This document shows, in pieces, positions 1,670 to 51,632 of a stretch of 64,000 nucleotides of DNA. Below the pieces are notes generated by a model. That model was not told the DNA's origin and searched no databases. It was given only the letters and a program-made list of their open reading frames with translations. The position numbers were made by a program, and so were the translations under genes. The stretch's first letter is position 1, and every line of letters begins with the position of its first letter. The stretch lies in assembly GCA_018819205.1 (NCBI GenBank), contig JAHJQE010000027.1, positions 1 to 64,000 of the forward strand. Direction: 5' to 3'. Source of the DNA: Gammaproteobacteria bacterium. GTDB lineage: Bacteria > Pseudomonadota > Gammaproteobacteria > Burkholderiales > Gallionellaceae.

Positions 1670-2632
1670 TCAGGCGCCCAGCAGAAAGTGGATCAGCAGA
1701 CCCAGTACCGCGAGCAGGAACGCTGTGCCGAGGAACTCCGGTGCACGGAAGATGCGCATCTTGGCGCTGACCACTTCCAGCACGGCCAGTCCCGCGCCGG
1801 CCAGTATCAGTTTCAGCAGCAGCAGCGCGAGCGCCAGCGGCAGGGCCGCCCAGTTGCCCACCTCGGCGATACCGTGCGGCAGGAACAGCGCGATGCCGAT
1901 GGATACATAGGCGAACAGTTTCAGACTGCTGGCCCACTCGATCAGCGCCAGGTGGCGCGCGGAATATTCCAGGATCATCGCCTCGTGGATCATGGTCAGC
2001 TCAAGGTGGGTGTTCGGGTTGTCCACCGGGATACGCGCGTTCTCCGCCAGCAGCACGATGACAAAGGCCAGCGCGGCGAAAGCCAGACTGGGGTACAGCA
2101 CGAACTGGTGGTGCGCCAATGATTCGACGATGCGCGGCAGCTGGGTGGAATGGCTGATCATGGATGCGGTGAACAGCACCATCAGCAGCGCCGGCTCGGC
2201 GAGGAACGACACCAGCATCTCGCGCCGGGCGCCCAGCGAACCGAAGGCGGTGCCGATGTCCATCGCAGCCAGCGCGATGAACATGCGCGCCAGTGCGAAC
2301 ACGCCGACCAGCGCGATCACGTCGGCTGCCCGCGAGAACGGCAGGTCGACCGCGATGATGGGGATGATGGCGGCTGCCAGCCACATGCAGCCGAACACGA
2401 TATAGGGGGTGATGCGGAACAGCCAGGAAGCATTGTGCGCCAGCACCGCATCCTTGCGGAACAGCTTGTGCAGTACGCGGTACGGCTGCAGCACGCCGGC
2501 CCCGGAACGGTTCTGCAGCCAAGCCTGGCACTGGTTCACCCAGCCGGAAAGCAGCGGCGCGGCCAGCACCACCAGCAGCAACTGCGTCAGCTGGAACACG
2601 ATAGCAAGTATGATTTCAGGTGCGATCATCAT
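1670..2632 (-). CDS. hyfC: Hydrogenase-4 subunit C, NuoH-like membrane anchor
   Basis: The protein is 320 aa from the first ATG of a double ATG-ATG at 2632, which shares four bases with the hyfB stop; a longer upstream reading lies inside hyfB and is rejected. It is NuoH-like, with about eight membrane helices and the conserved loop ENARIPVDNPNTHLELTMIHEAM, which links the membrane arm to the hydrophilic hydrogenase module. In known group-4 complexes this subunit binds the peripheral arm next to HyfG/HyfI. The order hyfB-C-E-F lacks hyfA and hyfD between the genes, which is common in compact Hyf loci. Confidence 0.9.
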   Translation of the reverse strand: MMIAPEIILAIVFQLTQLLLVVLAAPLLSGWVNQCQAWLQNRSGAGVLQPYRVLHKLFRKDAVLAHNASWLFRITPYIVFGCMWLAAAIIPIIAVDLPFSRAADVIALVGVFALARMFIALAAMDIGTAFGSLGARREMLVSFLAEPALLMVLFTASMISHSTQLPRIVESLAHHQFVLYPSLAFAALAFVIVLLAENARIPVDNPNTHLELTMIHEAMILEYSARHLALIEWASSLKLFAYVSIGIALFLPHGIAEVGNWAALPLALALLLLKLILAGAGLAVLEVVSAKMRIFRAPEFLGTAFLLAVLGLLIHFLLGA

Positions 2633-4635
2633 ACGAACACCAGCAACACGACCAGCGTCGCAAACGTGTAGGCCAGATACAGATGGATGCGTCCGTGCTG
2701 CAGCAGCGATGCCCAGCCGGACAGTTTCTCGGTCAGGTCTTTCAGCGGCAGATACAGCAGGAACCACAGTTTGTCATCGCTGTGTCCGTGATATTTGGGA
2801 TGTGTGTCGAATGCGCCGGGCACTTCGCGCTCAATGCGGAAGAACGGTTCGAAGATGCGGCGTATCGGCTGACCGAACCCTTCTGCCGTATCCTGCATGC
2901 GCGCGGTCTGCGCAGGGAAGCCGCAGTCCCACGCCGCGCCACGGCGCAAGCGGCCGTGGTACAAGCGGCGCACCAGCAGCACGGAAAGCCCCATCACGCC
3001 CGCTACCGCCAACAGGAAATACATCGGACTGTAACTGGCACGACCGGTGTCCACCGGTGCCAGGAACATCCAGTCGGCGCTGGCATTGCCCAGTTGTGAG
3101 CCAAGCAGTGACAGCGCCACGAGATCGATCTGCCCCAGCACGAACACCGGGAACAGGCCCAAGGCCACGCAGGCCAGCGCCAGCCACACCATGCCGGCAC
3201 GTTCCATGCTGCCTGCATCATGAGCACGCGCCAGCGCCGGTTCGCGCCGCTGCCCCAGGAAGATCACTCCGTAGAACTTGACCATCACGTAAGCGGCCAG
3301 TGCCGCCGCCAGCGCGATCACGGCGGCTGCCACCGGTACCAGCATGTCGATGTAGCTGTTGGGCAGGCCGGGTGACAACAGAAAGGCCTGCAGCAGCAGC
3401 CATTCCGATACGAAACCGTTGAGAGGAGGCAGTCCGGCGATAGCCAGCACGCCCACCAGCATCAGCACCGACGCCCACGGCATGTGATGGATCAACCCCC
3501 CCAGTCGCCCCATGTTGCGCTCGCCGGTGGCATGCAGGATGGAGCCGGTGCCGACGAACAGCAGACTTTTGAAGCAGGCGTGGTTGAGGCTGTGATACAG
3601 CGTCGCTGCCAACGCCAGTGCCGCGAGTTCTGCCTTGCCATAGACATGGAAGATCAGCGTCAGGCCGATGCCAACCAGCAGCAGGCCGATGTTTTCGATG
3701 GAGGAATAGGCCAGCAGGCGCTTCATGTCACCCTGCACGGCGGCGAACATCACCCCGAACACGGCTGTGACCAGACCTAGGCCCAGCGCCAGCACGCCCC
3801 ACCACCATACTTGTTCGGGCAACAGATCGAAGGTGACGCGCAAGATGCCGTAGATCGCAGTCTTCAGCATCACCCCGCTCATCAGCGCCGATACAGGCGA
3901 CGGGGCTGCAGGGTGAGCCTCCGGCAGCCACACGTGCGTCGGCAACACGCCGGCCTTGGCGCCAAAACCGAACAGCGCCAGGAGGAACGCGGCCGAGGCC
4001 CAGAACGGCGTCAGCGGCGCGGCGCGCATGGCATCGAAGGTATAGGCGCCGATGCCGTTTCCGCCCTGCATCACACCGAAGGCAAGCAGGATGGCGATGG
4101 CACCGACATGGGCGATCAGCAGATAGAGGAAGCCAGCACGGCGGATATCGGGGATAGCATGGTCGGTGGTGACCAGGAAATAGGAGGACAGTGCCATCAT
4201 CTCCCAGGCCACCATGAACAGGTAAGCGTCGTCCGCAAGCAACACCAGCGCCATGCTGGCGAGGAAAAGATGGTATTCGAGACAGAGCAGCCCCAGTGTC
4301 TTGCCTTCCATGTGGCGGAAATAACCGCTTGCATAGAGCGAGACGCCGAACGAGGCTACGCCGAGCAGGATCAGGAAAAAGGTGGACAACGCATCCAGCC
4401 GCAGGTGGAACGGCAATTCGGGCAGACCCAGCGGCAGCACCAGCGTCTGCGCCTCACTGCCCAGCGCGGCGAACCCTGCGGCGGCCAGCAACAAGGCAGC
4501 CAGCGCGCCCAGCGGAAACAGGATGCGGGTGAGTGAGCGGGTATCGCGCCACCACAAGCCGACCGCGCCGAGCAAGATCCAGAACAGGATCACGCCATTG
4601 GTTATCTCAAGCGCCGATAGACTTGTTGCATTCAT
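2629..4635 (-). CDS. hyfB: Hydrogenase-4 subunit B, antiporter-like membrane subunit
   Basis: This 668-aa protein matches the usual HyfB length (about 670 aa). It has roughly 14-16 membrane helices with the NuoL/MrpA-type core. Visible motifs are SYFLVTTDHAIPDIRRAGFL, the conserved FGFGAKAGVLPTHVWLPEAH PAAPSPVSALMSG region (around residues 225-260) and the LLAYSSIENIG helix. It is the first gene of the visible operon; the 122 bases upstream contain no gene. As in formate hydrogenlyase-type complexes it should carry one proton channel. The role is established for the family; the electron donor in this organism is not shown by the sequence. Confidence 0.92.
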   Translation of the reverse strand: MNATSLSALEITNGVILFWILLGAVGLWWRDTRSLTRILFPLGALAALLLAAAGFAALGSEAQTLVLPLGLPELPFHLRLDALSTFFLILLGVASFGVSLYASGYFRHMEGKTLGLLCLEYHLFLASMALVLLADDAYLFMVAWEMMALSSYFLVTTDHAIPDIRRAGFLYLLIAHVGAIAILLAFGVMQGGNGIGAYTFDAMRAAPLTPFWASAAFLLALFGFGAKAGVLPTHVWLPEAHPAAPSPVSALMSGVMLKTAIYGILRVTFDLLPEQVWWWGVLALGLGLVTAVFGVMFAAVQGDMKRLLAYSSIENIGLLLVGIGLTLIFHVYGKAELAALALAATLYHSLNHACFKSLLFVGTGSILHATGERNMGRLGGLIHHMPWASVLMLVGVLAIAGLPPLNGFVSEWLLLQAFLLSPGLPNSYIDMLVPVAAAVIALAAALAAYVMVKFYGVIFLGQRREPALARAHDAGSMERAGMVWLALACVALGLFPVFVLGQIDLVALSLLGSQLGNASADWMFLAPVDTGRASYSPMYFLLAVAGVMGLSVLLVRRLYHGRLRRGAAWDCGFPAQTARMQDTAEGFGQPIRRIFEPFFRIEREVPGAFDTHPKYHGHSDDKLWFLLYLPLKDLTEKLSGWASLLQHGRIHLYLAYTFATLVVLLVFV

Positions 4636-4728
4636 GCGGTGTTACTTGTACACCTCGCAAAATAGGGCCGTATACAGAAGGCGGCGATTCTACTCTTACC
4701 ATCGGCATTTGTTCAATTCGCCGTGCAG

Positions 4729-4751
4729 ATCGGGCAGTCCGACTGCCCGAT
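4729..4751. terminator. Perfect hairpin after the small lipoprotein gene
   Basis: Ten-base arms (ATCGGGCAGT and its complement) flank a 3-base loop, 6 bases beyond the stop of the 55-aa lipoprotein gene. There is no T-run on the minus strand, so this is either an imperfect intrinsic terminator or an RNA-protecting hairpin at the end of the envelope operon. It separates that operon from hyfB. Confidence 0.5.
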
Positions 4752-4757
4752 GCAGCA

Positions 4758-4925
4758 TCAGGGCGTGTTGCCCTGCACTTCTTTCGACAGTTCTTCCTGC
4801 CCTTTTTGTGAACGATATTGCTGCCAGTCGTCGCTATCCTTGTGATCCTTGCTGTTGTCGCTGGCGCAACCCGCCATGACTGACAGGAACAGGGCCGCCA
4901 TCATCAGACTCGATATTCTTCGCAT
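4758..4925 (-). CDS. 55-aa lipoprotein sharing its tail with the LPP20 lipoprotein
   Basis: The start is the ATG at 4925, 6 bases after a clean GGAGG; a longer reading from 4949 has no advantage. Residues 1-20 are a lipoprotein signal (MRRISSLMMAALFLSVMAGC) with the lipobox VMAGC and acceptor Cys20. The mature protein is only 35 residues, charged (DNSKDHKDSDD), followed by WQQYRSQKGQEELSKEV. That tail matches the C-terminal end of the upstream 194-aa protein (WQQFRSQKSQDELATEI). It is the last gene of a six-gene envelope operon, 37 bases after its neighbour. I do not know its function; it probably sits in the outer or inner membrane. Confidence 0.78.
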   Translation of the reverse strand: MRRISSLMMAALFLSVMAGCASDNSKDHKDSDDWQQYRSQKGQEELSKEVQGNTP

Positions 4926-4962
4926 GATGCCTCCATGATTTGCTTGCATTCACATACCCGTA

Positions 4963-5547
4963 TCATTGTGCGGGCGGTTGATTGGCGATCTCGGTAGCCA
5001 GCTCATCCTGGCTCTTCTGCGAGCGGAACTGTTGCCACGCTGCCTGATCGTTGTTCATGCTGCTCTTCAGCGCGGTCGCGGCGAGCTGCTGTGCACTGGC
5101 TTCATCCAGACCGACCAGCGCATACAAGGTGCCGTCCGGCCCGGTGATGGTACGCAGCAGTTTGCTGCCGACCAGCATCTCGTCGGTGATCTGCTTGGTT
5201 ACCGAGGTGTTGACCTGATCCACGGTCTCCTGATCTGCGGAACCGGTCGATTCGGCATACTGCTTGACCATGTTGGTCACTCTGGTACGTATTGTCTGCG
5301 CCAGCTGTACCCGCGCATCGGTCATCGCCATCTGCTTCATGAAAGACATGCCCGCAGCGGACTTGGCAGCCATCCCGACTGCTGTCACGGAAGTACCTTC
5401 TACCGGCATGTTGCATACCCAGAGCGGTGCTGCCTGCTGCGAGTTGGGGAACACGCATTCCGGCGCTGCGACCTTGGGTGCGCTGGCACATCCACCCAGC
5501 CCCAGCATGCCCAATGCAAGCAACGACATAACGTAACGATTAGTCAT
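4963..5547 (-). CDS. LPP20-family lipoprotein
   Basis: It is 194 aa from the ATG at 5547, which follows AAGGAGA at good spacing; the longer frame from 5607 adds 20 unlikely residues. The signal peptide ends in the lipobox GLGGC (Cys at about residue 20). The mature part has the LPP20 pattern: a short N-terminal piece with PLWVCNMP, then VTAVGMAAKSAAGMSFMKQMAMTDARVQLAQTIRTRVTNMV and a closing strand GTLYALVGLD. LPP20 proteins include Helicobacter Lpp20 and the flagellar outer-membrane FlgP; no flagellar gene is visible here. The C-terminal 25 residues are repeated in the downstream 55-aa lipoprotein. Confidence 0.8.
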   Translation of the reverse strand: MTNRYVMSLLALGMLGLGGCASAPKVAAPECVFPNSQQAAPLWVCNMPVEGTSVTAVGMAAKSAAGMSFMKQMAMTDARVQLAQTIRTRVTNMVKQYAESTGSADQETVDQVNTSVTKQITDEMLVGSKLLRTITGPDGTLYALVGLDEASAQQLAATALKSSMNNDQAAWQQFRSQKSQDELATEIANQPPAQ

Positions 5548-5603
5548 GATGCCATCTCCTTTTGGTTTGTTATTGCCATTCATCCAACTATCACAGTACT
5601 GCT

Positions 5604-6341
5604 TCAATCACGCACCTTGCTCAGCCATTCCGCCGCGAACTGCTCCAGCCCAGCCATCTCGTTCCTGGTCGTTGCGCTCAGCGCCGTTTCGGTCACGCGC
5701 CGTCCACTGAAGGCCACCATGCGGTCGGTCTGCAGACTGAATTCACGCTTGAACTCCACGAACTCGCGTTGCGTTCTAGCCTGATATTCTTTGAATGCCT
5801 GGCGTTCGCGGGCGACCGCATCCTTGCCTTCTTTCCTGAACGCGGCGAACTCATCCGTCACCTGCTGGCGGTGGATCTCGAACTCCTCGGCCGGACTGAT
5901 CACGCGCACCTCGCCCTTGCGCATGCCGATCTCCTGTCGTTCTGGCTGCTCGACCACCATGAAACGGGTGCCGCGCACGCCGATCACCGCAGTTTTCGTC
6001 CTGACTTCGGCAGCGCGCATGGATCGATCTATCTTGTTCATCGCGTAGTAGATCATGCCGCTAATCTGGCGGAACACTTCCACCGGCCCGGAACGGTCGA
6101 TCTCGACCGTACTGTTCTGCTCGACCACGATAAAACCCGTAGCGCCTACACTCACCACGGCACGCCCGCCTGCACCCGTATTGACACGGTACTGCCCGGG
6201 CGCCCCTTCTATGTCGCCCGACGTGACATGTCCGGTGGATTTGACGACCTCCATCCCTTCCGCGGCGTGCGCAGGGGTTGTCAGACACAACAGCAGCAGG
6301 CAAATACTCAGGCCCGATATCGCTTGCAGGGATGCGCGCAT
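5604..6341 (-). CDS. FecR-domain periplasmic protein
   Basis: This 245-aa protein starts with a Sec signal (MRASLQAISGLSICLLLLCLTTPAHA). Residues 28-145 form a FecR-like beta domain: EGMEVVKSTGHV, GGRAVVSVGATGFIVVEQNSTVEI, and the hallmark VRTKTAVIGVRGTRFMV, followed by KGEVRVISP. The rest (about 150-245) is charged and alpha-helical, rich in FEIHRQQVTDEFAAFRKEG-type heptads, probably a coiled coil. It lacks the inner-membrane span of true FecR anti-sigma partners, and no sigma factor is near. It therefore belongs to the stand-alone periplasmic FecR group of unknown function. It is 13 bases after its upstream neighbour. Confidence 0.8.
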   Translation of the reverse strand: MRASLQAISGLSICLLLLCLTTPAHAAEGMEVVKSTGHVTSGDIEGAPGQYRVNTGAGGRAVVSVGATGFIVVEQNSTVEIDRSGPVEVFRQISGMIYYAMNKIDRSMRAAEVRTKTAVIGVRGTRFMVVEQPERQEIGMRKGEVRVISPAEEFEIHRQQVTDEFAAFRKEGKDAVARERQAFKEYQARTQREFVEFKREFSLQTDRMVAFSGRRVTETALSATTRNEMAGLEQFAAEWLSKVRD

Positions 6342-6354
6342 CGCTTACTCCCGT

Positions 6355-7866
6355 TCATTGTTCCGTTTTCTGGCGCAGGAATCCGGAGGTCTTGCCCCGC
6401 CAGCGCTTGACCATATTGATCGCCAGCACGTCCATCACCATCTCTTCGGAGACGGGGTTCCAGCCGGTCACGCCTTTGAACCTGTCTGCGAGCACCAGCT
6501 CACCTTTATCCAGCAGCAGACTGCCCATCGTGCCATTGAATTGGTATTCGCGGCTGCCTGACTGTGGATCGCGTCCGGCGCGTTCCACCATCCTGCCGTC
6601 GGCCAGCATGACCAGCTCCAGCGCTTCGCCATCCCGCCTTGCGGAAGGCACCTCCCCGCGCAGCATCGCATCCAGTTGTGCCGCATCCATGACTGCGCTG
6701 CTGATTGTGACCTGTGCCCCCAAGGGACGGATGAGGGCGTTCAATGCATCGCAGGCTTTATGCCAGACCGCCACATTGCCAGCAGTCCGATAGTTGCAGC
6801 GCAGGGTAACGGCACGTCCTTCGAAATACTGGCGCCATGCGGCCTGCTCCAGTTCCGCCTCGGAACACTGCAGAGCGGCGGCACGGTTCCGTGCCAGTTC
6901 ATTGCGTTCACTCAGCTGTTTCGATTCGCCGGCCTGCTGGAAGTAGTTCTTCGCGTCGCAGACGTTGGCGCGCGCCGTTTCCAGTTCACCCAGCCTGTAC
7001 AGGATGTCGCCGCTCTCGAACAACCCGGCGATCCCTTGTCCATATTGCGCCAGCAGCCGTTTGTAGGTGCTCGCTGCCCCGGACAGCATCCGGGCACGCT
7101 GTCCTTGATCGGTTTGCGATGCCGCTTCCGCCACCTGCAAGTCGGCTGCCTGCAGCGCGGACCGTGCCTGTTCGAGCGATGACAGCGCAGATCGCAAGCC
7201 CTTCAGTATGCTCTCATAGAGCGCCGCCGAACCTGCCTCCGGCACCAGCTCCAGCGAGATGCGCGGCAATATATCCTGCGCAGCTTCCAGCGCCGCGCCG
7301 CGCTTATCCGGCATGGCAGCTGCATCTTGCGCGACGGCGATCTGTGCCTTCAGTTCTGCGAACAGCATCCTCGAAAGTCCCTCGCGCTTGCCCTTGTCGA
7401 CATCGCGCTTCGATACCCTGGCGCGCAACCAAAGGTCGCAACTCCTCGGGTCTTCCCAGGTTTCGATGATCTCTACGTTGCGCAGTGAGGCGCTGGTCGA
7501 GGTCTGAGTGACCAGGTTCAGGCTCGAGTCCGTGAATTCGCTGCCCCAGGTCTTGCGGCTCGACTGCTCCAGCACGATGGCGTTCTTGACCGAGACCTCT
7601 ATCATCTCCGACAGGCTCTTCAAGGCGTTCTGCTTGGCGGTCGCGATACGCTCGGACAGCGCAGCCTTGGCACTGGCCGACACGCCCGCTGCCAGAAAGT
7701 ACTCGGACGTCACCGTCTCCGGGCTATCTATCCAGTCCGGTCGCGGTCCGCCGCCCGCGCAGGATGCTGCCCAAATCGGCATAGCCAGCAGCCATGCAAG
7801 CGACAGCAGCAGGACGCGTCCACCGCGTTGCGACCATCCTTTCTTGTCCTGTATCTTCATGTTCAT
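6355..7866 (-). CDS. Large LPP20-like periplasmic protein with helical middle and C-terminal domain
   Basis: The 503-aa product has a long signal sequence ending near WAASCAGG (residues 33-40). Residues 42-160 resemble the LPP20 fold: PDWIDSPE, YFLAAGVSASAKAALSERIATAKQNAL, then DLWLRARVSK. Residues 160-350 are helical, including a TPR-like segment (YKRLLAQYGQGIAGLFESGDILYRLGELETA). Residues 355-500 form a second globular domain with VTLRCNYR and QVTISSAVMDAAQLDAMLRGE. Its ATG overlaps the upstream stop in an ATGA, so the two are translated together. The pairing of two LPP20-type proteins with a CsgG-like and a FecR protein is the notable feature; the function is unknown to me. Confidence 0.72.
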   Translation of the reverse strand: MNMKIQDKKGWSQRGGRVLLLSLAWLLAMPIWAASCAGGGPRPDWIDSPETVTSEYFLAAGVSASAKAALSERIATAKQNALKSLSEMIEVSVKNAIVLEQSSRKTWGSEFTDSSLNLVTQTSTSASLRNVEIIETWEDPRSCDLWLRARVSKRDVDKGKREGLSRMLFAELKAQIAVAQDAAAMPDKRGAALEAAQDILPRISLELVPEAGSAALYESILKGLRSALSSLEQARSALQAADLQVAEAASQTDQGQRARMLSGAASTYKRLLAQYGQGIAGLFESGDILYRLGELETARANVCDAKNYFQQAGESKQLSERNELARNRAAALQCSEAELEQAAWRQYFEGRAVTLRCNYRTAGNVAVWHKACDALNALIRPLGAQVTISSAVMDAAQLDAMLRGEVPSARRDGEALELVMLADGRMVERAGRDPQSGSREYQFNGTMGSLLLDKGELVLADRFKGVTGWNPVSEEMVMDVLAINMVKRWRGKTSGFLRQKTEQ

Positions 7867-8969
7867 TCCCGCACGATCTGGAACAAGGCCCTGCGCGCAC
7901 CTTCGGTCACGGACAGGAAGTCGTCAGTCTTGCCGTGCAGATGGGCCAGCGCGGGTTTGTCGAACGGTTCGCTGAAATAGTGCCGCCCCAACTCCACCCC
8001 GCGTTCGGTGTCCGCAAAGATCAGATGACTCTGCGAGACTGCCGCCACATAACGCCAGCTGCGCAGGAACAGGCAATCCGTGATGCGCGATCCGCCCCGC
8101 TGGTAGCGCGGGTCCTTCACCGAAACCTCGAAACGCTCGACTTCGCCACGCGTATCGGCATCGACCACATGCAGGTAGGAGGCATACGCGCGCGTCGGCC
8201 GCCCGAAATTGAATGACGTGCGCATCAGATAGGTACCGACCACACCCATGCGCCCGTCCGGCGAGGCTCGGACACAAGTCGGTTCTTCCGAGGTCCAGTC
8301 ATCCGCCTGCAGCCTGGCATAGCCGGCCCATTCGCTGGCCATGCCCAATGCCGGCGTGGCGGGCACCGCAGCCGCATCTTCCGACAGCATCTCCACCTGC
8401 TTGAGGGTCAGTCTGACCAGGCGCGGATGGGTGACATCCATCACTTGCATGCCGATCTTCCCGGCTGAATGGTCGACTGCACGCTGGATCGCGTTGTTGA
8501 GCGCGGCGGATTCGGTCAGACCGTCGGAGGGGGGCATGCCCTTGGTTCCCATCGGTGCAGAGGCAGCTGCCTTGACCTGGGCCTCTGCATCGACAAAACG
8601 GATATCGGCGCTCGCCGTGGCGGTGAAGGTGGCTGCAAGGCCGACCGCCTTACCTGCCGAGAGGTAGATACGATAGATACCGGATATCTCGTATTTGCCC
8701 GCGTTCTCCACGAAGTCTTCAGCGGTAATGAGCGCGCCGGGATCACTCAATCGGCCCCAGGTATCCTTCAGCTCCTCCGCCTTGTCCTGATCGAGTACCA
8801 CGACGCCATTGTCCGCGAGCAGCTGTTCGAAGCGTGTCTGTGCAACACGCTGATAGCGACTGGCGACCTCGTCCTGGCCGTAGACCACGACAGCCACCTT
8901 GTCCTGCGCCGCACCGGCCGGGAAAGCCGTCAGCAGCAGAAACAAGTAGAGCGAACAGCGCAACCTCAT
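7863..8969 (-). CDS. Secreted protein with CsgG/LpoB-like N-terminal domain
   Basis: It is 368 aa from the ATG at 8969 (MRLRCSLYLFLLLTAFPAGAAQDKV, a signal peptide); starts at 8978 or 8990 are also possible since no strong ribosome site decides. Residues 23-175 follow a CsgG/LpoB/FlgT-like plan: KVAVVVYG, then a helix YQRVAQTRFEQLLADNGVVVLDQDKAEELK, then YEISGIYRIYLS, and a closing helix ALNNAIQRAVDHSAGKI. Residues 200-368 look like a beta-rich, possibly propeller-type domain (VRASPDGRMGVVGTYLM, YLHVVDADTRGEVERFEV, RYVAAVSQSHLIFAD). The fold assignment is by eye and uncertain. It sits between a beta-barrel gene and the LPP20-like gene. Confidence 0.65.
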   Translation of the reverse strand: MRLRCSLYLFLLLTAFPAGAAQDKVAVVVYGQDEVASRYQRVAQTRFEQLLADNGVVVLDQDKAEELKDTWGRLSDPGALITAEDFVENAGKYEISGIYRIYLSAGKAVGLAATFTATASADIRFVDAEAQVKAAASAPMGTKGMPPSDGLTESAALNNAIQRAVDHSAGKIGMQVMDVTHPRLVRLTLKQVEMLSEDAAAVPATPALGMASEWAGYARLQADDWTSEEPTCVRASPDGRMGVVGTYLMRTSFNFGRPTRAYASYLHVVDADTRGEVERFEVSVKDPRYQRGGSRITDCLFLRSWRYVAAVSQSHLIFADTERGVELGRHYFSEPFDKPALAHLHGKTDDFLSVTEGARRALFQIVRE

Positions 8970-9027
8970 AAGAACCATCCGACTGAGCATCAAGCAGCAG
9001 GCGGCCTGAGCCGCCCGCCTATACAGA

Positions 9028-9585
9028 TCAGTATCTGGCAGTGAGGCCGAACAGCATGCGCACCCCGCTTTGGGTGATGTCCGTGCCGTAATCATCGGTC
9101 AACCCGTCCCCGAACCCCTGTATGGACAAGTCGGCTGAAACATCTTCAGTGATGAAATACGATGCGCCAACACCTGCCGATAAACCGCCACCGGTCATGG
9201 TCGAAGTGATGTTCGAGGTTGTCGATGAGAGCAGCACCATATGCAACTCCCCCTCCACAAAGGGGACGAGAGCCGACTTGGCTGCGCCATCAAGATAATA
9301 TTTGAGCCCGAATCCCAGATTCGTACCCACGTTCGAAGATGCTCCACCATTGCTGCTGGTTCCGAACAGCGAGACGTTGCCGGACATGACCATCTGGGAA
9401 GTCAGATACTGTCCCATCCGGAAGTAAAAGAATGTACTGGTCGCATCGGAAGTGAAGCCTCCCACATCAGTCGTTGTCGCCGTCATGTTGCCGGCGATCG
9501 AGACTTCCGATTTGCCCTCCTGCGCCATCGCTGTACCTGCCATGAGCATCGACAGCATCGCAGCCATCACTACACGCTTTGTCAT
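9028..9585 (-). CDS. Small outer-membrane beta-barrel protein
   Basis: The 185-aa protein starts at the ATG at 9585 behind GGGAGC; the longer frame to 9645 is not supported. A signal peptide (MTKRVVMAAMLSMLMAGTAMA) precedes alternating strands such as TSTFFYFRMGQYLTSQMVMSGNVSLFG, LGFGLKYYLDG and VGASYFITEDVSADLSIQGFGD. It ends in LFGLTARY, with the terminal aromatic residue recognised by the BAM machinery. The size suggests an eight-stranded barrel like OmpW/OmpX. It is the first gene of the envelope operon, 58 bases before the CsgG-like gene, and may be the membrane partner of the periplasmic proteins. Confidence 0.75.
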   Translation of the reverse strand: MTKRVVMAAMLSMLMAGTAMAQEGKSEVSIAGNMTATTTDVGGFTSDATSTFFYFRMGQYLTSQMVMSGNVSLFGTSSNGGASSNVGTNLGFGLKYYLDGAAKSALVPFVEGELHMVLLSSTTSNITSTMTGGGLSAGVGASYFITEDVSADLSIQGFGDGLTDDYGTDITQSGVRMLFGLTARY

Positions 9586-9689
9586 TTTGAGCTCCCAAGA
9601 ATGGTTGATTGGAATGAAGTCAGCGCAATGTCGCGCTGCGTTCAATCTAAGCTCTTTTCGGGCAATAGATATAGCCCCGAGGTGTTATT

Positions 9690-12600
9690 TCACTGATAGA
9701 TGATACGCACTTTGTCGCGCCCGATCTCATCGTTCAGCGTCGCGATCAATTCTTCCGGCAGAGTGACCTTCCACTCGTCCCCCAGACGCAACGGCGCGGC
9801 GCCGATCAGGTTGCGGTAGTTGATCTGTACCGTACATTCTCCGCCGCAGTACGGCTTGAGCATCTCGGCCAAACGAGTAGTGCAGACCTTGTCGTCCATG
9901 CTGCACTCGATATCCAGACGCTTGGCGAACACCGCACGCGCCGAGGCGAAGTCGAACAGTGCGTCGGCACTGATGCGCATGCCGCCGGAATATTCGTCCA
10001 TGCTGGCGCGACCGCGCGCCACCACCAGCTGGTCGTCGCGCAGCCAGTTGCGGTTCGGCTCGAACAGGTCGTTGAACACCGTCATCTCGATCTGCGCGCT
10101 GCCGTCGTCCAGCGTGAGCACCGCCATGCGGCCGCGCCGCGTCTGCAGGATGCGGATGCCGCTGATGATGCCGGCCAGCACCAGTTCTTTTTCCTGGCGG
10201 CGTGACCTGCCGTTGGCAGCGGGCAATATCTCGGGCGTGACCTTGTCCAGCCGCATGCTGACGAAATTGGACAGCTCCTGTTCGAACTCCTGATAAGGGT
10301 GGCCGGACAGATAGAAGCCGAGCGCGGTCTTCTCCTGTTGCAGCTGTTCACGCAGTTTCCAGCGCGGAACGTCCGCCAGTGGCAGCGTCATATCCTCCGC
10401 CGGATCGTCGCCGAACAGGCTGACCTGATTGGCCGCGCGCGCATGTTGTTCGGCACTGCCCAGCGCGGAATCGAGCGAGGCCAGCAACTGGTAACGATGG
10501 TCGTTGATGCTGTCGAACGCACCCGCCTTGATCAGCGCCTCGATGGCGCGGCGGTTGACCACGCGCTTGTCCACGCGGCGGCAGAAGTCGAACAGGTCGG
10601 TGAACGGCCCGCCTTCCTTGCGCGCCGCCACGATGTTCTCCACCGCTGCTTCGCCCGTGCCTTTCACCGCACCGAGGCCGTAGGCCATGGTCTTCTCGTC
10701 GGTTGGCGTGAAGCGGTACAGCGAGCTGTTGATGTCCGGCGGCAGGATCTGCACGCCCTGCAACGCCGTGTCCTGATAGAAGAAGCTCACCTTGTCGGTG
10801 TTGTCCATTTCCGAGGACAGCGTGGCGGCCATGAACGCGGCCGGGTAGTGGCACTTCAGGTAGGCGGTCTGATAGGCGACTACGGAGTAGGCGGCGGCGT
10901 GCGACTTGTTGAAGCCGTAACCCGCGAACTTCTCCATGGTGTCGAAGATCTCGTTCGCCTTCTTCTCGTCGATGTCGTTCCTGGCCGCGCCCGCCACGAA
11001 GATGGCGCGCTGTTCGGCCATCTCTTCGGCTTTCTTCTTACCCATCGCGCGGCGCAGCATGTCGGCGCCGCCCAGCGTGTAGCCGGCCACCGCCTGCGCG
11101 GCCTGCATCACCTGCTCCTGATACACCATGATGCCGTAGGTGCTGCGCACCACCTTGTCCAGCAGCGGGTGCGGGATGATCACCTTCTCGCGGCCGTGCT
11201 TGCGGTTGATGTAGTCCGGGATGAAGTCCATCGGGCCGGGACGGTACAAGGCGTTCAGCGCGATCAGATCGTCGATGCAGTCCGGCTGCGCTTTCACCAG
11301 CGTGTCCTTCATGCCGCGCGATTCGAACTGGAACACGGCGGTGGTGTTCGCGTTGCGGAAGATGGTGTCGTAGGTGGGCTTGTCGTCGAGCGGAATCAGG
11401 TCGATGTTGAACGACGCTGTGCCTTCGATGCCGGACGCTTTGATGTAGCGCACCGCCCAGTCGATGATGGTCAGCGTGCGCAGACCCAGGAAGTCGAACT
11501 TCACCAGGCCGACGGCTTCCACATCGTCCTTGTCGAACTGGCTGACCGTGCTCTCGCTGCCTTCGGCACAATACAGCGGACAGAAATCAGTGAGCTTGCC
11601 CGGCGCGATCAACACACCGCCGGCGTGCATGCCGACGTTGCGCGTCAGGTCTTCCAGACGCTCGCCCAGCTCCATCAGCTCGTCCACGCCTTCTTCGCTG
11701 GCAATGATGGCGTTGAACTCGGGTTCCATTTCGCGTGCCTTGGCCAACGACACCGGCTTCACACCTTCCAGCGGCACCAGCTTGGACAGTCGGTCGCACA
11801 GCATGTAGGGGAAGTCCAGCACGCGGCCGACGTCGCGGATCACACCCTTGGAGGCCATAGTGCCGAAGGTGGCAATCTGCGACACGCAGGCCTCGCCGTA
11901 GTGATGGCGCACGTACTGGATCACCAGTTCGCGCCCGTCCTGGCAGAAGTCCACGTCGAAGTCGGGCATGGACACGCGCTCGGGATTGAGGAAGCGCTCG
12001 AACAGCAGTTCGTAACGCAACGGGTCGAGGTCGGTGATGCCGAGCGAATAAGCCACCAGCGAACCGGCACCGGAACCGCGCCCCGGCCCCACCGGCACGC
12101 CGTTGGGGAAGCGCTCGTGACGGTAGGATTTCGCCCAGCGGATGAAGTCCGACACGATCAGGAAGTAGCCCGGGAAGCCCATCTTGATGATGGTCTCGGT
12201 CTCGAATTCGAGGCGCGCCAGATATTCCGGCATCTTCTCTGCGCGCAGCGTCTCGTCCGGATACAGATGCAGCATGCGCTGCTCCAGTCCGCGCAGCGAT
12301 TCGTCGCGCAGGAACTGGTCCAGCGATTCGCCGTTCGGCGTGGGGAAATCGGGCAGGTAGTTGGTGCCGAGTTTGAGCGTGAGGTTGCAGCGTTTGGCGA
12401 TCTCCACGCTGTTCTGCAAAGCCTGCGGCAGATCGGCGAACAGTTCGGCCATCTCGGCCTGCGTCTTGAAATGCTGTTGCTCGGTGAACACACGTTGGCG
12501 GCGCTTGTCGTTCAGCACATAGCCTTCGGCGATGCACACGCGCGCCTCGTGTGCCTTGTAGTCGTCGGCTGCCAGGAACTGCACCGGGTGCGTCGCCACT

Positions 12601-13187
12601 ACCGGCAACGCCAGCACATTCGCCAGCAGCACCGTGTCGCGGATGAGTTCTTCCTCACGCGGGAAGCCGCAACGCTGGATCTCCAGATAGAAACGGTCGG
12701 GGAACAGCTCGGCATAGTCGAGGGCTGCCTGCTTCGCGGCATTGGCATTGCCGTTCTGCATCGCCACACCCACCTCGCCCAGCTGGAAGCTGGACAGCGC
12801 AATCAAACCCTCCGTGCCTTCGTTCAGCCATTCCTTGCGAATCTCGGGACGACCGCGGTACTGGTTGCCAAGATAGGCGCGCGTCAGCAGGTCGCACAGC
12901 TTCAGATAGCCGGCATTGGACTGGCACAGCAACAGCAAACGGTGCGGCTGGTCGCGCGCGGTATCGTTGGTGACGAACACATCACAACCGGCCACGGGTT
13001 TGATACCCGAGCCGCGCGCTTTCTTGTAGAACTTCACCAGCCCGAACACATTGGAGAGATCGGTCAGCGCCAGCGCGGGCTGTGCATCCGCCTGCGCCGC
13101 CGCCACCGCTTCATCGATGCGCACGATGCCGTCAGCGATGGAATACTCGCTATGGAGACGAAGATGGACGAAAGCGGGTTGCGGCAT
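9690..13187 (-). CDS. dnaE: DNA polymerase III alpha subunit
   Basis: This 1165-aa protein is full length for bacterial DnaE. The N-terminus (FVHLRLHSEYSIADGIV) is the PHP domain (about 1-270). The palm holds the catalytic aspartates in PDFDVDFCQDGRE (about residue 405). Then come the fingers, the tandem HhH region around ALIKAGAFDSIN (about 880) and an OB domain near residues 985-1060 (ELVLAGIISGIRILQTRRGRMAVLTLDDG). It is the replicative polymerase. It stands alone here, with 44 bases to the stop and no obvious partner gene. Confidence 0.97.
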   Translation of the reverse strand: MPQPAFVHLRLHSEYSIADGIVRIDEAVAAAQADAQPALALTDLSNVFGLVKFYKKARGSGIKPVAGCDVFVTNDTARDQPHRLLLLCQSNAGYLKLCDLLTRAYLGNQYRGRPEIRKEWLNEGTEGLIALSSFQLGEVGVAMQNGNANAAKQAALDYAELFPDRFYLEIQRCGFPREEELIRDTVLLANVLALPVVATHPVQFLAADDYKAHEARVCIAEGYVLNDKRRQRVFTEQQHFKTQAEMAELFADLPQALQNSVEIAKRCNLTLKLGTNYLPDFPTPNGESLDQFLRDESLRGLEQRMLHLYPDETLRAEKMPEYLARLEFETETIIKMGFPGYFLIVSDFIRWAKSYRHERFPNGVPVGPGRGSGAGSLVAYSLGITDLDPLRYELLFERFLNPERVSMPDFDVDFCQDGRELVIQYVRHHYGEACVSQIATFGTMASKGVIRDVGRVLDFPYMLCDRLSKLVPLEGVKPVSLAKAREMEPEFNAIIASEEGVDELMELGERLEDLTRNVGMHAGGVLIAPGKLTDFCPLYCAEGSESTVSQFDKDDVEAVGLVKFDFLGLRTLTIIDWAVRYIKASGIEGTASFNIDLIPLDDKPTYDTIFRNANTTAVFQFESRGMKDTLVKAQPDCIDDLIALNALYRPGPMDFIPDYINRKHGREKVIIPHPLLDKVVRSTYGIMVYQEQVMQAAQAVAGYTLGGADMLRRAMGKKKAEEMAEQRAIFVAGAARNDIDEKKANEIFDTMEKFAGYGFNKSHAAAYSVVAYQTAYLKCHYPAAFMAATLSSEMDNTDKVSFFYQDTALQGVQILPPDINSSLYRFTPTDEKTMAYGLGAVKGTGEAAVENIVAARKEGGPFTDLFDFCRRVDKRVVNRRAIEALIKAGAFDSINDHRYQLLASLDSALGSAEQHARAANQVSLFGDDPAEDMTLPLADVPRWKLREQLQQEKTALGFYLSGHPYQEFEQELSNFVSMRLDKVTPEILPAANGRSRRQEKELVLAGIISGIRILQTRRGRMAVLTLDDGSAQIEMTVFNDLFEPNRNWLRDDQLVVARGRASMDEYSGGMRISADALFDFASARAVFAKRLDIECSMDDKVCTTRLAEMLKPYCGGECTVQINYRNLIGAAPLRLGDEWKVTLPEELIATLNDEIGRDKVRIIYQ

Positions 13188-13728: not shown

Positions 13729-15090
13729 ATGCGCAGCCTCTATCCTCTGCGGGTGGTCGTTCTGATCGGCCTGTTCGCCTGGCTGGTGATCAAGGCCATC
13801 GAAACCCCGCCCCTGCCTGATTGGCGGTCAGGGGAACTGGTCGCGGTGGTGCCAGACGCCTCCATGGTCACAGATTCGGCATTCGAATCCGATCTGGTCA
13901 CCCTGTTCGCCAAGCATCTCAACGTGCGTGTGCGATTGATCAAGCAGCCTTCCGATAAGGCCGTCGCAACCCTGCTGGCAGGGAATGCACATCTGGTCGC
14001 CGGCTTCCGTTCCCAGTCCAATCCCTCACTGCGCTATAGCGACGGCTATCACAAGCTGGATGAACGCGTGGTCTGCAATGGCAAGCAGCCCCGCAAGCTG
14101 GAAGAACTCACCTCGCGCGAACTGGTGGTGGCACGTGAATCGGCACAGGAGGCTGCCTTGCGCAAGCTGCGTGAAGAACTGGATCGGCTGGATTGGGAAT
14201 CGCGCAAGGACAGCTCTCCCATCGAGTTGCTGAAAGAACTGGCGGAAGAGCAAATCGACTGCACGGTAGCCAATGAAGAGCAGATCACCACCATGCGCAA
14301 CTACTATCCGGAGATCGGCAGAGGCCTGAGCCTGAACCTCGATTCGGACATGAGCTGGGCCATCAGTGCCGAAGGTGACGAAGAGTTACTGGATACGGTG
14401 AATCGTTTTCTCGCCGAGAGCCGCAAGAACCGTGCGCTGCACTACGCGATCGATCGCCACTACGGCCACAATGACAGATTGGGCAGCATCGACGTGTCAG
14501 CATTCATCGCCGATACGCGTACTGTGCTGCCGCATTATCGCCAGTGGTTTCAGGACGCCGCCGACCTGACCGGCATCGATTGGCGCTTGATCGCAGCGCT
14601 GGCCTATCGCGAGTCGCGCTGGGATCCGAATGCCGTCTCCTTCACCAACGTGCGCGGCCTGATGATGCTCACCGAGACCACCGCCGACCGCATGGGCGTG
14701 GACAATCGCCTGGACCCCAAGGAAAGCATCATGGCCGGCGCACGTTACCTGCAACTGTTAAAGGAGCAATTGCCGCTACGTATCACCGAGCAGAATCGCC
14801 TGTGGATGGCCTTGGCCGCCTATAACCAGGGCATGGGACACCTTGAGGATGCGCGCATCATGACCAGACAACGCGGTCTCAATCCCGATGTGTGGGTCGA
14901 TGTGAGACGCGTGATGCCCCTGTTGTCACAACCCGAGTATTACGAGAACACCAGATTCGGTCGCGCGCGCGGCGGCGAGGCCGTGGTGCACGTGGAGACG
15001 GTGCGCCTGTATCACGACATGCTGAAGCGACTGGATGCGGAAGGGAAGCTTCCGAAGACGACGCGCTTCCCTTTCGGGATAGGGCAGTAA
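13729..15090 (+). CDS. mltF: Membrane-bound lytic murein transglycosylase F
   Basis: The 453-aa protein has an N-terminal signal or anchor (VVVLIGLFAWLVIKAI), a solute-binding-like regulatory domain (about residues 33-260, beginning GELVAVVPDASMV) and a C-terminal lysozyme-like SLT domain (about 275-440). The catalytic glutamate is E295 in ALAYRESRWDP, followed by GLMMLTETTADRMGV and the AAYNQGMGHL motif. MltF cleaves the glycan strands of peptidoglycan in the periplasm. It is one of three plus-strand genes and converges with the LytTR regulator 9 bases downstream, so the two probably share termination. Confidence 0.94.
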   Translation: MRSLYPLRVVVLIGLFAWLVIKAIETPPLPDWRSGELVAVVPDASMVTDSAFESDLVTLFAKHLNVRVRLIKQPSDKAVATLLAGNAHLVAGFRSQSNPSLRYSDGYHKLDERVVCNGKQPRKLEELTSRELVVARESAQEAALRKLREELDRLDWESRKDSSPIELLKELAEEQIDCTVANEEQITTMRNYYPEIGRGLSLNLDSDMSWAISAEGDEELLDTVNRFLAESRKNRALHYAIDRHYGHNDRLGSIDVSAFIADTRTVLPHYRQWFQDAADLTGIDWRLIAALAYRESRWDPNAVSFTNVRGLMMLTETTADRMGVDNRLDPKESIMAGARYLQLLKEQLPLRITEQNRLWMALAAYNQGMGHLEDARIMTRQRGLNPDVWVDVRRVMPLLSQPEYYENTRFGRARGGEAVVHVETVRLYHDMLKRLDAEGKLPKTTRFPFGIGQ

Positions 15091-39934: not shown

Positions 39935-41611
39935 TTATCTGGTCATGCTCTTGATGCGATCGCGACTGCGCGTGATGTCATCCGCCCAATCCTTGTCACT
40001 GTTGATGATAGTCGGCTTGATCAGGATGACCAGCTCTCGTTTCTGAGAGGTCTGACTGGTCTGGCCGAACACCGACTTGGGCAGTCCGGGCAACCCTGAC
40101 TGGTTGTCGTAGGTCGCTTGCCGCATCAATCCGCCGATGGCGACGATCTGGCCATCACGTGCACGCACGATGCTGTCGGTCTCTGATACCGAACTGGAAG
40201 CAAGCGGCAGGTTCAGTGTGCCGCCCACGCCGCCCACATCGACAGTCTTGTTGACGGTGCTGACCAGGCTGACCGCCGGATGTACATGCAGGATGATCTC
40301 GCCGTTCTGATCGATACGCGGCGTCACGTCCAGCGCAATGCCGGAAAAGAACGGTTGCAGCGTCACACTGGGCGTGCTGGTGGTCGCTGTGCCGGTGGTC
40401 GTGGTATTGGTCACGTTGGTCACGAAGAACTCGTCCGTCCCCACTTTCAGCACCGCCTTCTGGTTGTTCAACGTCGCGATGCGCGGGCTGGACAACACAT
40501 GTACGTCACCCTGCGACTCAAGGAAACTCAGCAACGCCGCGAAGTTGGCGGTCTGGAATGCCAAGCCGAACAGTGAGCCGGACACACCCGTAGTTGCGGC
40601 CGTGATCGAAGCGCCGGGTGTTGCGGTCAGCAATGCATCGCTGATGGATTGTGCATTACCGTTGGCATTAGGCAGCAAGGTTGCGCCTGGCGACAGCACG
40701 CCCAGCGAACCGCTGCTGCTCGAACTGCCACTTGGCCTACCGAAGGTAGACCAGTTCACGCCTGACTGGAACGAGTTATTCAATTGCACTTCGACAATCT
40801 TTGCTTCCAGCATCACCTGACGTTCAATGGAGATCTGCGAGGCTTTCAGATAAGCCGCGACATTCTTCAATTCGTCAGGCATAGCCCGAACCACTATCAC
40901 GCCGCTCATCGGGCTGATCACCACGCTGCGCCCTTTTTCCGCACCTACGATAGCTGTCAACGAAGCGCTCAATTCCTCCCAGAAGTCCGCTTTCGAGGTC
41001 ATGCTGACGTTGCTGCTGTCCATCCCGCGCGCCCGGTTGCTATTGGTGGTCGTGCTGGTCGTGGTCGTTCCACCCACACCTGACATGAGGCCGGTAGGAC
41101 TATCCGAGACCGAGCCGGAAGACACGCGCAAAGAAGATTTTCCATCGCGCTGCCCGGTCAGATAATTCACCTGGTAGATACGCGTCTGCAAACCTACGGG
41201 TTGGATGTAGATACGCGAACCGTCAATCTTGTATTCGTAGCCGTACATCTCGCGGATGGATTCCAGCGCATCAAAAACGGTGACGTCTTTCAGATTCAGC
41301 GAGATGTTTCCGCTGACATCCGGATGCAACAGCATGCTATAGCGTGTGCCGGATACGATAGCCATGAAAACCTGCTGAGCAGGCGTGTTGTTCACTGAAA
41401 GGTCAAACTTGGCCTCAGCTGCCGCAGCATCCACTGGAGCAATCGCGGCTGGCATTGGCGGCAACAAGGCATCGTATACCTCTGTCTCCGTGCTGGCTTT
41501 GACTGCCGCATCAAGCTCGGTATTGATCTGTTGCTTGACGTTCTGGCTGGCCCCGTTCGTCGCACAGCCGGCGAACGCGAACAGACTCAGCGCGATGAAT
41601 AATTGCCTCAT
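39935..41611 (-). CDS. mshL: MSHA secretin MshL
   Basis: The 558-aa lipoprotein has the lipobox FAFAGC (Cys16), a secretin/TonB short N-terminal domain (SVNNTPAQQVFMAIVSGTRYSMLLHPDVSGNISLNLKDVTVFDAL), an N1-type domain, a Ser/Thr-rich linker (GGTTTTSTTTNSN, about 185-200) and the secretin barrel (VMLEAKIVEVQLNN to RELVILIKPTII). It forms the outer-membrane pore through which the pilus passes. It overlaps mshK by 4 bases. Confidence 0.94.
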   Translation of the reverse strand: MRQLFIALSLFAFAGCATNGASQNVKQQINTELDAAVKASTETEVYDALLPPMPAAIAPVDAAAAEAKFDLSVNNTPAQQVFMAIVSGTRYSMLLHPDVSGNISLNLKDVTVFDALESIREMYGYEYKIDGSRIYIQPVGLQTRIYQVNYLTGQRDGKSSLRVSSGSVSDSPTGLMSGVGGTTTTSTTTNSNRARGMDSSNVSMTSKADFWEELSASLTAIVGAEKGRSVVISPMSGVIVVRAMPDELKNVAAYLKASQISIERQVMLEAKIVEVQLNNSFQSGVNWSTFGRPSGSSSSSGSLGVLSPGATLLPNANGNAQSISDALLTATPGASITAATTGVSGSLFGLAFQTANFAALLSFLESQGDVHVLSSPRIATLNNQKAVLKVGTDEFFVTNVTNTTTTGTATTSTPSVTLQPFFSGIALDVTPRIDQNGEIILHVHPAVSLVSTVNKTVDVGGVGGTLNLPLASSSVSETDSIVRARDGQIVAIGGLMRQATYDNQSGLPGLPKSVFGQTSQTSQKRELVILIKPTIINSDKDWADDITRSRDRIKSMTR

Positions 41612-42108
41612 TTTCCACTCCCATTCTTGGTGTCGTCATCCACGCAGGTCACGACCTTTTTCTTTGCCTTGGCGGGCTTCTTCTTTGGCTTCTTTCTTGC
41701 CGCTACCTTGCGTATGGTCGACAGACCGCTTCGGCCAGCACAAGCCTGTTCTGTCTTGGAAAGATTGACCGTAGGATACATATGCATCACCTTGCGCCCC
41801 TCGGGGCCGAGCAGCACGACGCAAGTCTCATTCACGACTGCCAGTGTCGCACCACCATACTTCTGTCCGACTTCCACCTCAACGCCATTGATGATGGCGG
41901 CCTCGCGTTTGCCTGCCAGAATCACGGACTGCAAGCCACTGGGTGCAACCGGAGTTGATTCCGGCCCCACCGGTTGCCCATCCAGCCCCGGCACCAGGTC
42001 GAATGCCGGACGCGTTGGATCTTCCAGACCGGACGCTGCCCAGACGCTCACGCTCGGCAGCATGTAGAGCAACAAAACGCTTGCGAATCTTATCAAACCT
42101 GTAGCCAT
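41608..42108 (-). CDS. mshK: MSHA biogenesis protein MshK (PilP-like)
   Basis: The 166-aa protein has a signal (about 1-25), the LEDPTRP motif typical of MshK, a compact domain LQSVILAGKREAAIINGVEVEVGQKYGGATLAVVNETCVVLL and a very basic C-terminal tail (ARKKPKKKPAKAKKKV). The lysine-rich tail is unusual and could contact nucleic acid or membrane phosphates. It overlaps mshJ by 16 bases. Confidence 0.85.
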   Translation of the reverse strand: MATGLIRFASVLLLYMLPSVSVWAASGLEDPTRPAFDLVPGLDGQPVGPESTPVAPSGLQSVILAGKREAAIINGVEVEVGQKYGGATLAVVNETCVVLLGPEGRKVMHMYPTVNLSKTEQACAGRSGLSTIRKVAARKKPKKKPAKAKKKVVTCVDDDTKNGSGK

Positions 42109-42761
42109 GTCTTGTCCAAGCTAAGTGTATACAGCGTCAACGTAAGTTCTGCTTGGGGATATTTCACTACCTTCATGCTGGCCATGCCCCAGAACATCTC
42201 GGCAGGCAATTTCTCCAGCGCAGTCAGATATTGCAACAGATCAAGATAGCTTCCGCGCACGGTGAGCTTCACACCATGCTTGAATATCTGGCGCCCGACA
42301 GTGTGCCCTGCCGCATTCGCGTCGCCACTTGTCTCGATGAGCTGCGACACCGGCAATGTATTCAATTCCACCAACTGAAGGCGTGAGTTTTTGCTCAGCA
42401 CCTGTTCCAGCAACACCGCCATCTTTTCTGGCGGCACCAGTCGATCTCCCGTTTCCTTCAGATAGGCTTCGCTCGCTGCAATCTGCTCTTTCAACTGCAT
42501 CATCCTCGCACGTTGCGGCGCATGTTCATCTGCTTGCTTGGCCTGCAACAGACTGGCAAGCTGAGCCTGTACTTCCTTCATCTTCTCCTGCTGCTGCACC
42601 ACCTGCGATGACAGACGTTTCTGCTGCGCCAGTAACGGATCGAGCAAAATGGTATTGATGAGCGAAACCAACGCAAAAGCTACTGCAGCGAAGATCAGCG
42701 CACGCTCCCGCAGCGACATCTCGTCGATCTTGGCAATCGCCGCTTCGATACGCGCATTCAT
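42093..42761 (-). CDS. mshJ: MSHA biogenesis protein MshJ (PilO-like)
   Basis: The 222-aa protein has one N-terminal membrane helix (ALIFAAVAFALVSLINTILL), a coiled coil (residues 50-110, QQEKMKEVQAQLASLLQAKQ) and a C-terminal alpha/beta domain (HGVKLTVRGSYLDLLQYLTALEKLPAEMFWG), the PilO/GspM plan. It forms the inner-membrane alignment complex with the PilN-like and MshI proteins. It overlaps the neighbouring genes on both sides. Confidence 0.87.
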   Translation of the reverse strand: MNARIEAAIAKIDEMSLRERALIFAAVAFALVSLINTILLDPLLAQQKRLSSQVVQQQEKMKEVQAQLASLLQAKQADEHAPQRARMMQLKEQIAASEAYLKETGDRLVPPEKMAVLLEQVLSKNSRLQLVELNTLPVSQLIETSGDANAAGHTVGRQIFKHGVKLTVRGSYLDLLQYLTALEKLPAEMFWGMASMKVVKYPQAELTLTLYTLSLDKTWLQV

Positions 42762-44334: not shown

Positions 44335-44353
44335 AATTAAGATGAACTTAATT
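44335..44353. promoter_or_regulatory. Inverted repeat abutting the mshI start codon
   Basis: Seven-base arms AATTAAG and CTTAATT flank ATGAA, directly against the ATG of mshI, in the place of a ribosome site. It may be an operator or an RNA hairpin that controls translation of the second msh block. The 145 bases between it and the mshQ stop show no gene. Confidence 0.5.
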
Positions 44354-44498
44354 TACTAACCCTTTGCTGTCAAGGATAAATTTCATTCCACCACGTCCAA
44401 CATCCGGCATTTTGCTGCCAATTTTGTCGCATTTCCGACGCGCAATAGACAAACGACCACACCCAAGGCATGGCCGTCTGACGAATTCCCGACTTCCA

Positions 44499-51622: not shown

Positions 51623-51632
51623 GCCGAATATC

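Follow-up and report, generated by a model that had tools for sequence, protein, structure and literature searches.

Six adjacent genes in the 64-kb stretch of DNA analysed here (the window), carried by contig C79 of a Gallionellaceae assembly (G000; 2.15 Mb, 103 contigs, listed as 100% complete), may encode an outer-membrane lipoprotein scaffold that would hold periplasmic enzymes by helix-helix docking, a reading to which we give a probability of roughly 0.4. The genes, which we refer to as BB, P2, P3, FecR, LPP and mini, follow one another in that order on the minus strand, 9585 to 4758, as six intact open reading frames (ORFs), in agreement with the initial annotation of a six-gene envelope locus, and they look like an undescribed cell-envelope assembly that is neither a flagellar nor a curli ring. 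The nearest named relatives of this iron-oxidizer-like bacterium are Sideroxydans, Sideroxyarcus and other Gallionellaceae. As judged from sequence, the docking elements would be an aromatic-ladder helix, which FecR has in common with a transglutaminase-like protein (TG) and an MltC-like lytic transglycosylase of related loci, and a C-terminal tail common to LPP and mini. The features concerned are listed below in window coordinates.

5604..6341, minus strand: FecR, a FecR-domain periplasmic protein with a helical C-terminal extension, 245 aa (PF04773, E 4.6e-9)
5721..5852, minus strand: aromatic-ladder helix of FecR (FxxF/Y at +0, +18 and +29), by hhalign to the N-termini of TG and MltC-like proteins
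4963..5547, minus strand: LPP, an Lpp20-type outer-membrane lipoprotein, 194 aa (LPP20, E 6.8e-11)
4984..5046, minus strand: C-terminal tail of LPP (WQQFRSQKSQDELATEI), common to mini (hhalign)
4758..4925, minus strand: mini, a 55-aa lipoprotein made of a lipobox and an LPP-type tail, present in 6/6 six-gene loci
4776..4832, minus strand: LPP-type tail within mini (hhalign and column shuffles)

A helix and a tail as candidate docking elements

The motif FxxY at +0, +18 and +29 was common to the C-terminus of FecR, the N-terminus of TG and the N-terminus of the MltC-like lytic transglycosylase, the exceptions to this register being two of the five MltC-like rows, which have extra 11-residue spacings, and the FecR proteins of loci L057 and L059, which are without the first pair. 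Comparison of the helices by hhalign gave 93.9% for FecR-TG, 93.3% for FecR-MltC-like and 97.3% for TG-MltC-like, with 0/200 column shuffles scoring as high in each case, and the controls, P3 and a coiled-coil protein, gave <1%. When a profile of the helix was searched against 14 genomes, all matches at E<0.05 fell in FecR, TG, MltC-like proteins or a 253-aa frame of G093, which adjoins LPP and was taken as FecR; in the window's own genome the profile matched FecR only, and in four genomes chosen without LPP (G025, G028, G064 and G095) it matched nothing. The matches in G104, G093 and G020 came from outside the training rows; in G020 it was the MltC-like gene that the profile matched, at E 0.0034. 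Kinship of the FecR helix to the LPP tail or to mini was rejected (hhalign about 1% or less); the TG helix and mini gave 22%, a value not used as evidence.

The second element came from comparison of the LPP C-terminus with the body of mini, for which hhalign gave 97.8% (E 1.1e-12) and a score that none of 200 shuffles reached. Both contain WQQ[FY]RxQKxQ[DE]EL and, by this alignment, are one motif, mini being essentially a lipobox with an LPP tail. The lipoboxes of the two proteins, LGGC in LPP and MAGC in mini, were identified by eye, as was Ala at +2 in both, for which the +2 rule leads one to expect sorting to the outer membrane. Other mini-like lipoproteins precede FecR in six further loci (L026, L028, L036, L038, L057 and L059). 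LPP itself scored 42.9 bits against PF02169 (cut-off 25.9), its profile matched Helicobacter pylori Lpp20 (5ok8) over most of the chain at E 1.8e-8, and FecR scored 37.0 bits against PF04773 (cut-off 24). The common helix and the identity of the two tails, together with the TG member that is absent here, go beyond the initial annotation.

In the mechanism that we propose, LPP and mini would anchor a periplasm-facing scaffold in the outer membrane, which the FecR-domain protein and the P2/P3 pair would join beside the small BB barrel. In relatives this scaffold would recruit the secreted TG via the common aromatic-ladder helix, and its place would be taken in other lineages by a lytic transglycosylase of the MltC-like kind that bears this helix too. 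The FecR helix would pair with that of the enzyme, the LPP/mini tail would dock on a shared partner, and a wall- or envelope-modifying enzyme would thus be kept under the outer membrane, with peptidoglycan or a wall-linked protein as its likely substrate; the enzymes are probably peptidoglycan-active. The present lineage would keep the scaffold without its enzyme, which may have been lost or replaced. More speculatively, the locus could be a modular envelope machine with two private 'plugs', one the ladder helix, joining FecR to interchangeable enzymes of the transglutaminase-like or lytic transglycosylase type, the other the LPP/mini tail, for whose socket the stand-alone mini might serve as a competitor or spacer; the genome studied here would then be naturally enzyme-free. 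We hold this fuller version only tentatively.

The proposed mode resembles that of NlpI and LpoA/LpoB, in which an outer-membrane lipoprotein holds or activates wall enzymes, NlpI being treated as an outer-membrane lipoprotein regulator of wall enzymes in PMC7049810. By analogy, we propose that the locus would work like these regulators without being a member of their families, since no sequence relation was found, docking would be by an aromatic helix and the enzyme is transglutaminase-like. FecR has the PF04773 domain of the FecR anti-sigma/transducer proteins but differs from them in having its own signal sequence and a C-terminal aromatic helix, and no sigma-factor gene was recognised in the mapped locus.

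Gene modules and the absent transglutaminase-like member

The same six genes were found in the same order in five other Gallionellaceae species (G006, G017, G009, G030 and G003; loci L020-L024), so that co-occurrence, on which the initial annotation had staked its proposal, extends beyond the species. Orthologs of P3 were present in 6/34 genomes of the genus, own included, and all six had BB-P2-P3-FecR-LPP-mini; a seventh locus, L031, has the order BB-P3-P2-FecR-LPP and is without mini. Among 120 family genomes, profiles matched at E<=0.001 in 33 (LPP), 27 (TG), 14 (P3) and 9 (P2) genomes, and in 29, 26, 10 and 9 at stricter cuts. The co-occurrence count leaves aside, for LPP, matches above E 1e-50 (G010, G132, G098 and G099), for TG, that of G020 (E 1.8e-7) and, for P3, those confined to the Lpp20 domain region (G035, G078, G084 and G096). 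P2 and P3 coincided in all nine P2 genomes, and LPP and TG occurred together in 20 genomes (Fisher p 5e-11, with no correction for relatedness).

P2-P3 can also sit apart from FecR-LPP, the two being about 32 kb from each other in G104, and on a 6.6-kb contig of G121 P2-P3 is followed by FecR without LPP. The six-gene set is thus a composite of two modules, P2-P3 and FecR-LPP-mini. The latter is part of a wider module found into Gammaproteobacteria, and outside the family TG was matched in 15/369 other class genomes, one of them weakly. Full-length P3 orthologs were found in 0/368 other class genomes, which gave four weak partial matches, and a single-sequence P3 scan of genome contigs returned 29 stretches and no relative. 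The LPP profile gave 43 homologous loci, making 44 mapped loci with the window, of which 27 had TG, 20 FecR, 4 an MltC-like gene and 3 LpoB. A block of CC364 (coiled-coil-like), a BB2 barrel and a small LPP20 lipoprotein recurs after LPP in L025-L027, L029, L031 and L062; the one CC364 member tested had no Pfam or NCBIfam match, and comparison of the small LPP20-like proteins of relatives (LPPs) with solved structures gave nothing credible.

TG, a secreted protein of 490-513 aa, lies directly after mini in all five of the other six-gene loci. Its signal sequence is followed by the aromatic helix and a Pro-rich linker, and the domain beyond these conserves C, H and D (28/30, 29/30 and 29/30 rows, one row being a fragment and one having Y for C) in motifs that we read as transglutaminase-like and from which the triad positions were picked. 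PF01841 was matched in 1/12 members (E 0.035); the three members tested against NCBIfam gave no match, and TG had none in the PDB. In the window, mini and hyfB are 122 nt apart with no TG between them, and the TG profile that matches 27/120 family genomes found none in the window or elsewhere in its genome.

This absence bears on a further reading, in which a lineage of reduced genome has lost TG and the remaining genes are drifting. FlgI is missing as well, and at 2.15 Mb the genome is smaller than most of the more complete genomes of the genus (mostly 2.5-3.8 Mb), but all six ORFs are intact, and the FecR helix positions, the six cysteines of P3 and the LPP tail have all been kept, so that we regard a decaying remnant as improbable.

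The company kept by LPP elsewhere suggests a wall-related role, MltC-like, LpoB and TolB-N-like fusion proteins being among its neighbours. The MltC-like gene, matched by SLT at E 4.8e-25, by Mltc_N at E 1.9e-10 and, short of the model's cut-off, by NCBIfam MltC at E 1.3e-51, stands beside LPP in 4/44 loci, and adjoins LPP or FecR in Gammaproteobacteria and G020 (L044, L045, L050, L055 and L068). Locus L036 reads LPP-mini-FecR-LPPs-TG-LpoB-TPR protein-LPP20 protein, its LpoB (E 3.3e-40) belonging to a family described by Pfam as a peptidoglycan-synthase activator. Two fusions directly after TG (L057:9080-10501 and L059:9056-10495) have an N-terminal domain that is TolB-N-like by eye and a C-terminal LPP domain.

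Folds of P2 and P3 and the competing readings

The remaining genes of the locus, and the domains assigned to their products, are as follows.

9028..9585, minus strand: BB, a small outer-membrane beta-barrel protein, 185 aa (PF13505, OMP_b-brl, E 2.4e-8)
7863..8978, minus strand: P2, a TolB-like two-domain periplasmic protein, 371 aa (no Pfam family; by fold comparison)
7866..8411, minus strand: predicted C-terminal partial beta-propeller of P2, residues 190-371 (structural matches, Z 12.4-14.3)
6355..7866, minus strand: P3, with a predicted Lpp20 domain, TPR-like helices and an HpaA/PelC/CsgG-like C-terminal domain, 503 aa (LPP20, E 1.8e-8)
7372..7746, minus strand: predicted Lpp20/SHS2-like domain of P3, residues 41-165 (5ok8_A, Z 12.2)
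6364..6831, minus strand: predicted C-terminal alpha/beta domain of P3, residues 346-501 (HpaA 8t8d, Z 8.9)

The Pfam matches of BB, P3, LPP and FecR bore out the earlier call of a beta-barrel, two LPP20 proteins and a FecR protein, and signal sequences were seen by eye at the N-terminus of all six products, which had been predicted to be exported. P2, which had been called CsgG-like, found no such support. It had no Pfam match at E<=1, its seven orthologs had none naming CsgG or TolB at E<=10, and its AlphaFold2 model (predicted local distance difference test, pLDDT, 71.7; predicted TM-score, pTM, 0.54) points to TolB or a beta-propeller rather than to CsgG. Residues ~190-371 of the model matched WD40 propellers (114-158 aligned, root-mean-square deviation (rmsd) 2.0-3.7), a comparison that barely covers the N-domain, for which the predicted order of strands and helices is compatible with a TolB-N/CsgG domain that no search confirmed. 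Kinship in sequence between P2 and LpoB, P3 or the TolB-N-like domain of the L057 and L059 fusions was rejected (hhalign <1% each), and any common fold is therefore a matter of structural comparison. C235 and C302 of P2 are invariant across the seven orthologs, as are all six cysteines of P3, which would be expected of oxidised periplasmic proteins.

P2 was central to an alternative in which the locus is a stability device like Tol-Pal, P2 acting as TolB and LPP/mini as Pal-type lipoproteins, so that the outer membrane would be tethered or braced without any enzyme. In the P2 model as in TolB, an N-terminal alpha/beta domain is followed by a propeller-like part, and the best Foldseek match of P2 was TolB in the TolB/Pal complex 4r40 (E 9.7e-7), yet with a TM-score of 0.22 and an rmsd of 16. 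The strict co-occurrence of P2 and P3, which can be found apart from LPP and TG, and the want of TG in the window would suit such a device; the propeller, however, is incomplete, no TolB family match was found, and neither Tol genes in general nor inner-membrane TolQRA-like genes were seen in the locus. In the propeller comparison TolB was not among the 50 matches listed for P2, which excludes nothing. We consider a Tol-Pal-like function unlikely. The envelope-spanning assembly that had been suggested is not supported, the six-gene set having no inner-membrane part.

P3 matched PF02169 with 35.1 bits (cut-off 25.9), and 7/7 orthologs matched it at E<=10. In its model (pLDDT 74.7, pTM 0.46), residues 41-165 superposed on H. 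pylori Lpp20 with an rmsd of 2.3 over 108/114 residues, residues 165-335 resembled TPR-type helices at Z about 9-11, a level flagged as possibly common, and residues 346-501 aligned with HpaA 8t8d (rmsd 3.7, 141 aligned). Foldseek matches of P3 included HP0492, FlgT, HP1454, PelC, LptE and CsgG (E 4e-4 to 0.05), and the LPHT ring was also listed. Thus of the CsgG and LPP20 folds first assigned by eye, LPP20 held, whereas the CsgG assignment was lost for P2 by sequence and, on the model, it is P3 that would carry a CsgG/PelC/HpaA-like domain.

That domain raises the prospect of an export channel, formed by P3 and the BB barrel, through which a polymer or protein would be secreted. The C-terminal domain of P3 matches PelC, CsgG, LptE and HpaA-type folds, and the barrel gene precedes P3, lying upstream of P2 in 6/6 six-gene loci and heading P3 in L031. 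Against this, CsgG ranked only 38th (E 0.049, TMt 0.27), neither P3 nor its orthologs had a CsgG Pfam match (PF03783), BB is small, and no polymerase, curlin or substrate gene was recognised in the locus; an export channel is accordingly very unlikely. A curli/CsgG identity was rejected by sequence for P2, P3 and their orthologs alike, and anti-phage defence was rejected by PADLOC, which matched 0/6 proteins at E<=0.01.

The LPP20 domains, together with FlgT and the LPHT ring in the Foldseek list of P3, recall the FlgP/FlgT type of accessory flagellar ring, in which an SHS2/LPP20 fold likewise occurs in an outer-membrane-associated protein. FlgI, used as the one marker, had 0 matches in the window's genome vs 92/120 family genomes with a match, and since flgI, the P-ring gene, is missing there though most relatives have it, this genome is probably non-flagellated. 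FlgI was also absent from four other LPP genomes (G020, G104, G135 and G136), and it was not associated with LPP across the family, being present in 24/29 LPP genomes vs 68/91 others (p 0.46). According to PMC12222027, ring formation in the LPP20 fold family tracks an insert, in FlgP a beta-hairpin, that separates the SHS2 helix from strand 2. At this position the P3 model forms a helix (113-128) and no hairpin, and LPP, judged from its alignment to Lpp20, has no insert there. The outer-membrane ring of the initial annotation is thus not upheld, in contrast to its statement that flagellar and curli genes are not involved, with which the want of FlgI and of CsgG sequence matches agrees. For this genome we reject a flagellar ring, for which the locus has no flagellar context; only flagellar genes in missing sequence could revive it, and its probability is close to nil.

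H. pylori Lpp20 (HP1456) resembles both LPP and the first domain of P3. To our knowledge, its neighbourhood holds a different gene set, without FecR, TG, P2 or P3. The window's genome differs further in being without the flagellum marker FlgI. In PMC11756786, HP1456 and HP1454 are given as partners of the outer-membrane ring protein FapH.

Several observations weigh against the enzyme-holding scaffold that we prefer. With no enzyme in its own genome, the proposed output is impossible here unless TG has been replaced, and TG occurs without LPP in three family genomes (L070, L071 and L072). Conversely, 11/44 LPP loci have no FecR, TG or MltC-like gene in the fetched DNA, among them several short contigs, though L048, L049, L052 and L060 each span about 20 kb. 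The helix profile gave no match at E<0.05 in four LPP genomes without TG (G023, G013, G029 and G136). LpoB and MltC contexts are few, the assignment of TG as a transglutaminase draws on its motifs and one weak Pfam match, and the models of P2 and P3 are of only moderate confidence.

No description of the locus was found in the open-licence literature searched, which covered LPP20 with FecR, transglutaminase, peptidoglycan, FlgT/TolB/CsgG, Sideroxydans lipoproteins and MltC/LpoB, and the view that it is undescribed stands to that extent; a term search likewise found LPP20 and FecR unmentioned in the main text of some Gallionellaceae papers. Lpp20-fold lipoproteins are widespread, and the locus makes their non-flagellar role a testable question, in the form of an Lpp20-fold lipoprotein, a FecR protein and swappable periplasmic enzymes that would be coupled via a recognisable helix. 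The helix profile offers a search handle for further members of the module.

Gene layout and surroundings

The six genes are flanked by dnaE (9690-13187) and hyfB (2629-4635), and the gaps between them are, in gene order, 49, -4, 13, 56 and 37 nt. The ATGA coupling noted earlier applies to the P2/P3 junction and to none of the other four. Promoter and terminator scans gave no more than chance. One structure was seen beyond mini.

4729..4751, minus strand: hairpin 3' of mini, a possible transcript end (10-bp stem, no T run)

A 76-nt stretch here folds at -27.6 kcal/mol (z -2.7), and the terminator scan did not flag the hairpin on its strand.

The stretch from dnaE to hyfB (window 2629-13187), or the position immediately after dnaE, varies as an island across species (L012-L017, L019, L070 and L071): some have the six genes there, others FecR-TG, only TG or a larger set, and sometimes there is a protein of ~1200 aa that is CheB-like by eye. 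A few hundred bases past dnaE and a tRNA-Ser gene, the window encodes a lytic transglycosylase (13729-15090, plus strand) in which SLT is combined with a solute-binding domain, an arrangement that we take to be MltF-like; the aromatic-ladder helix profile had no match in it. Further along, at 39935-57088 on the minus strand, a secretin (39935-41611), a 1481-aa DUF6701 protein (44499-48944) and a T2SSE/MshEN ATPase (55385-57088) suggest a pilus locus of MSHA type.

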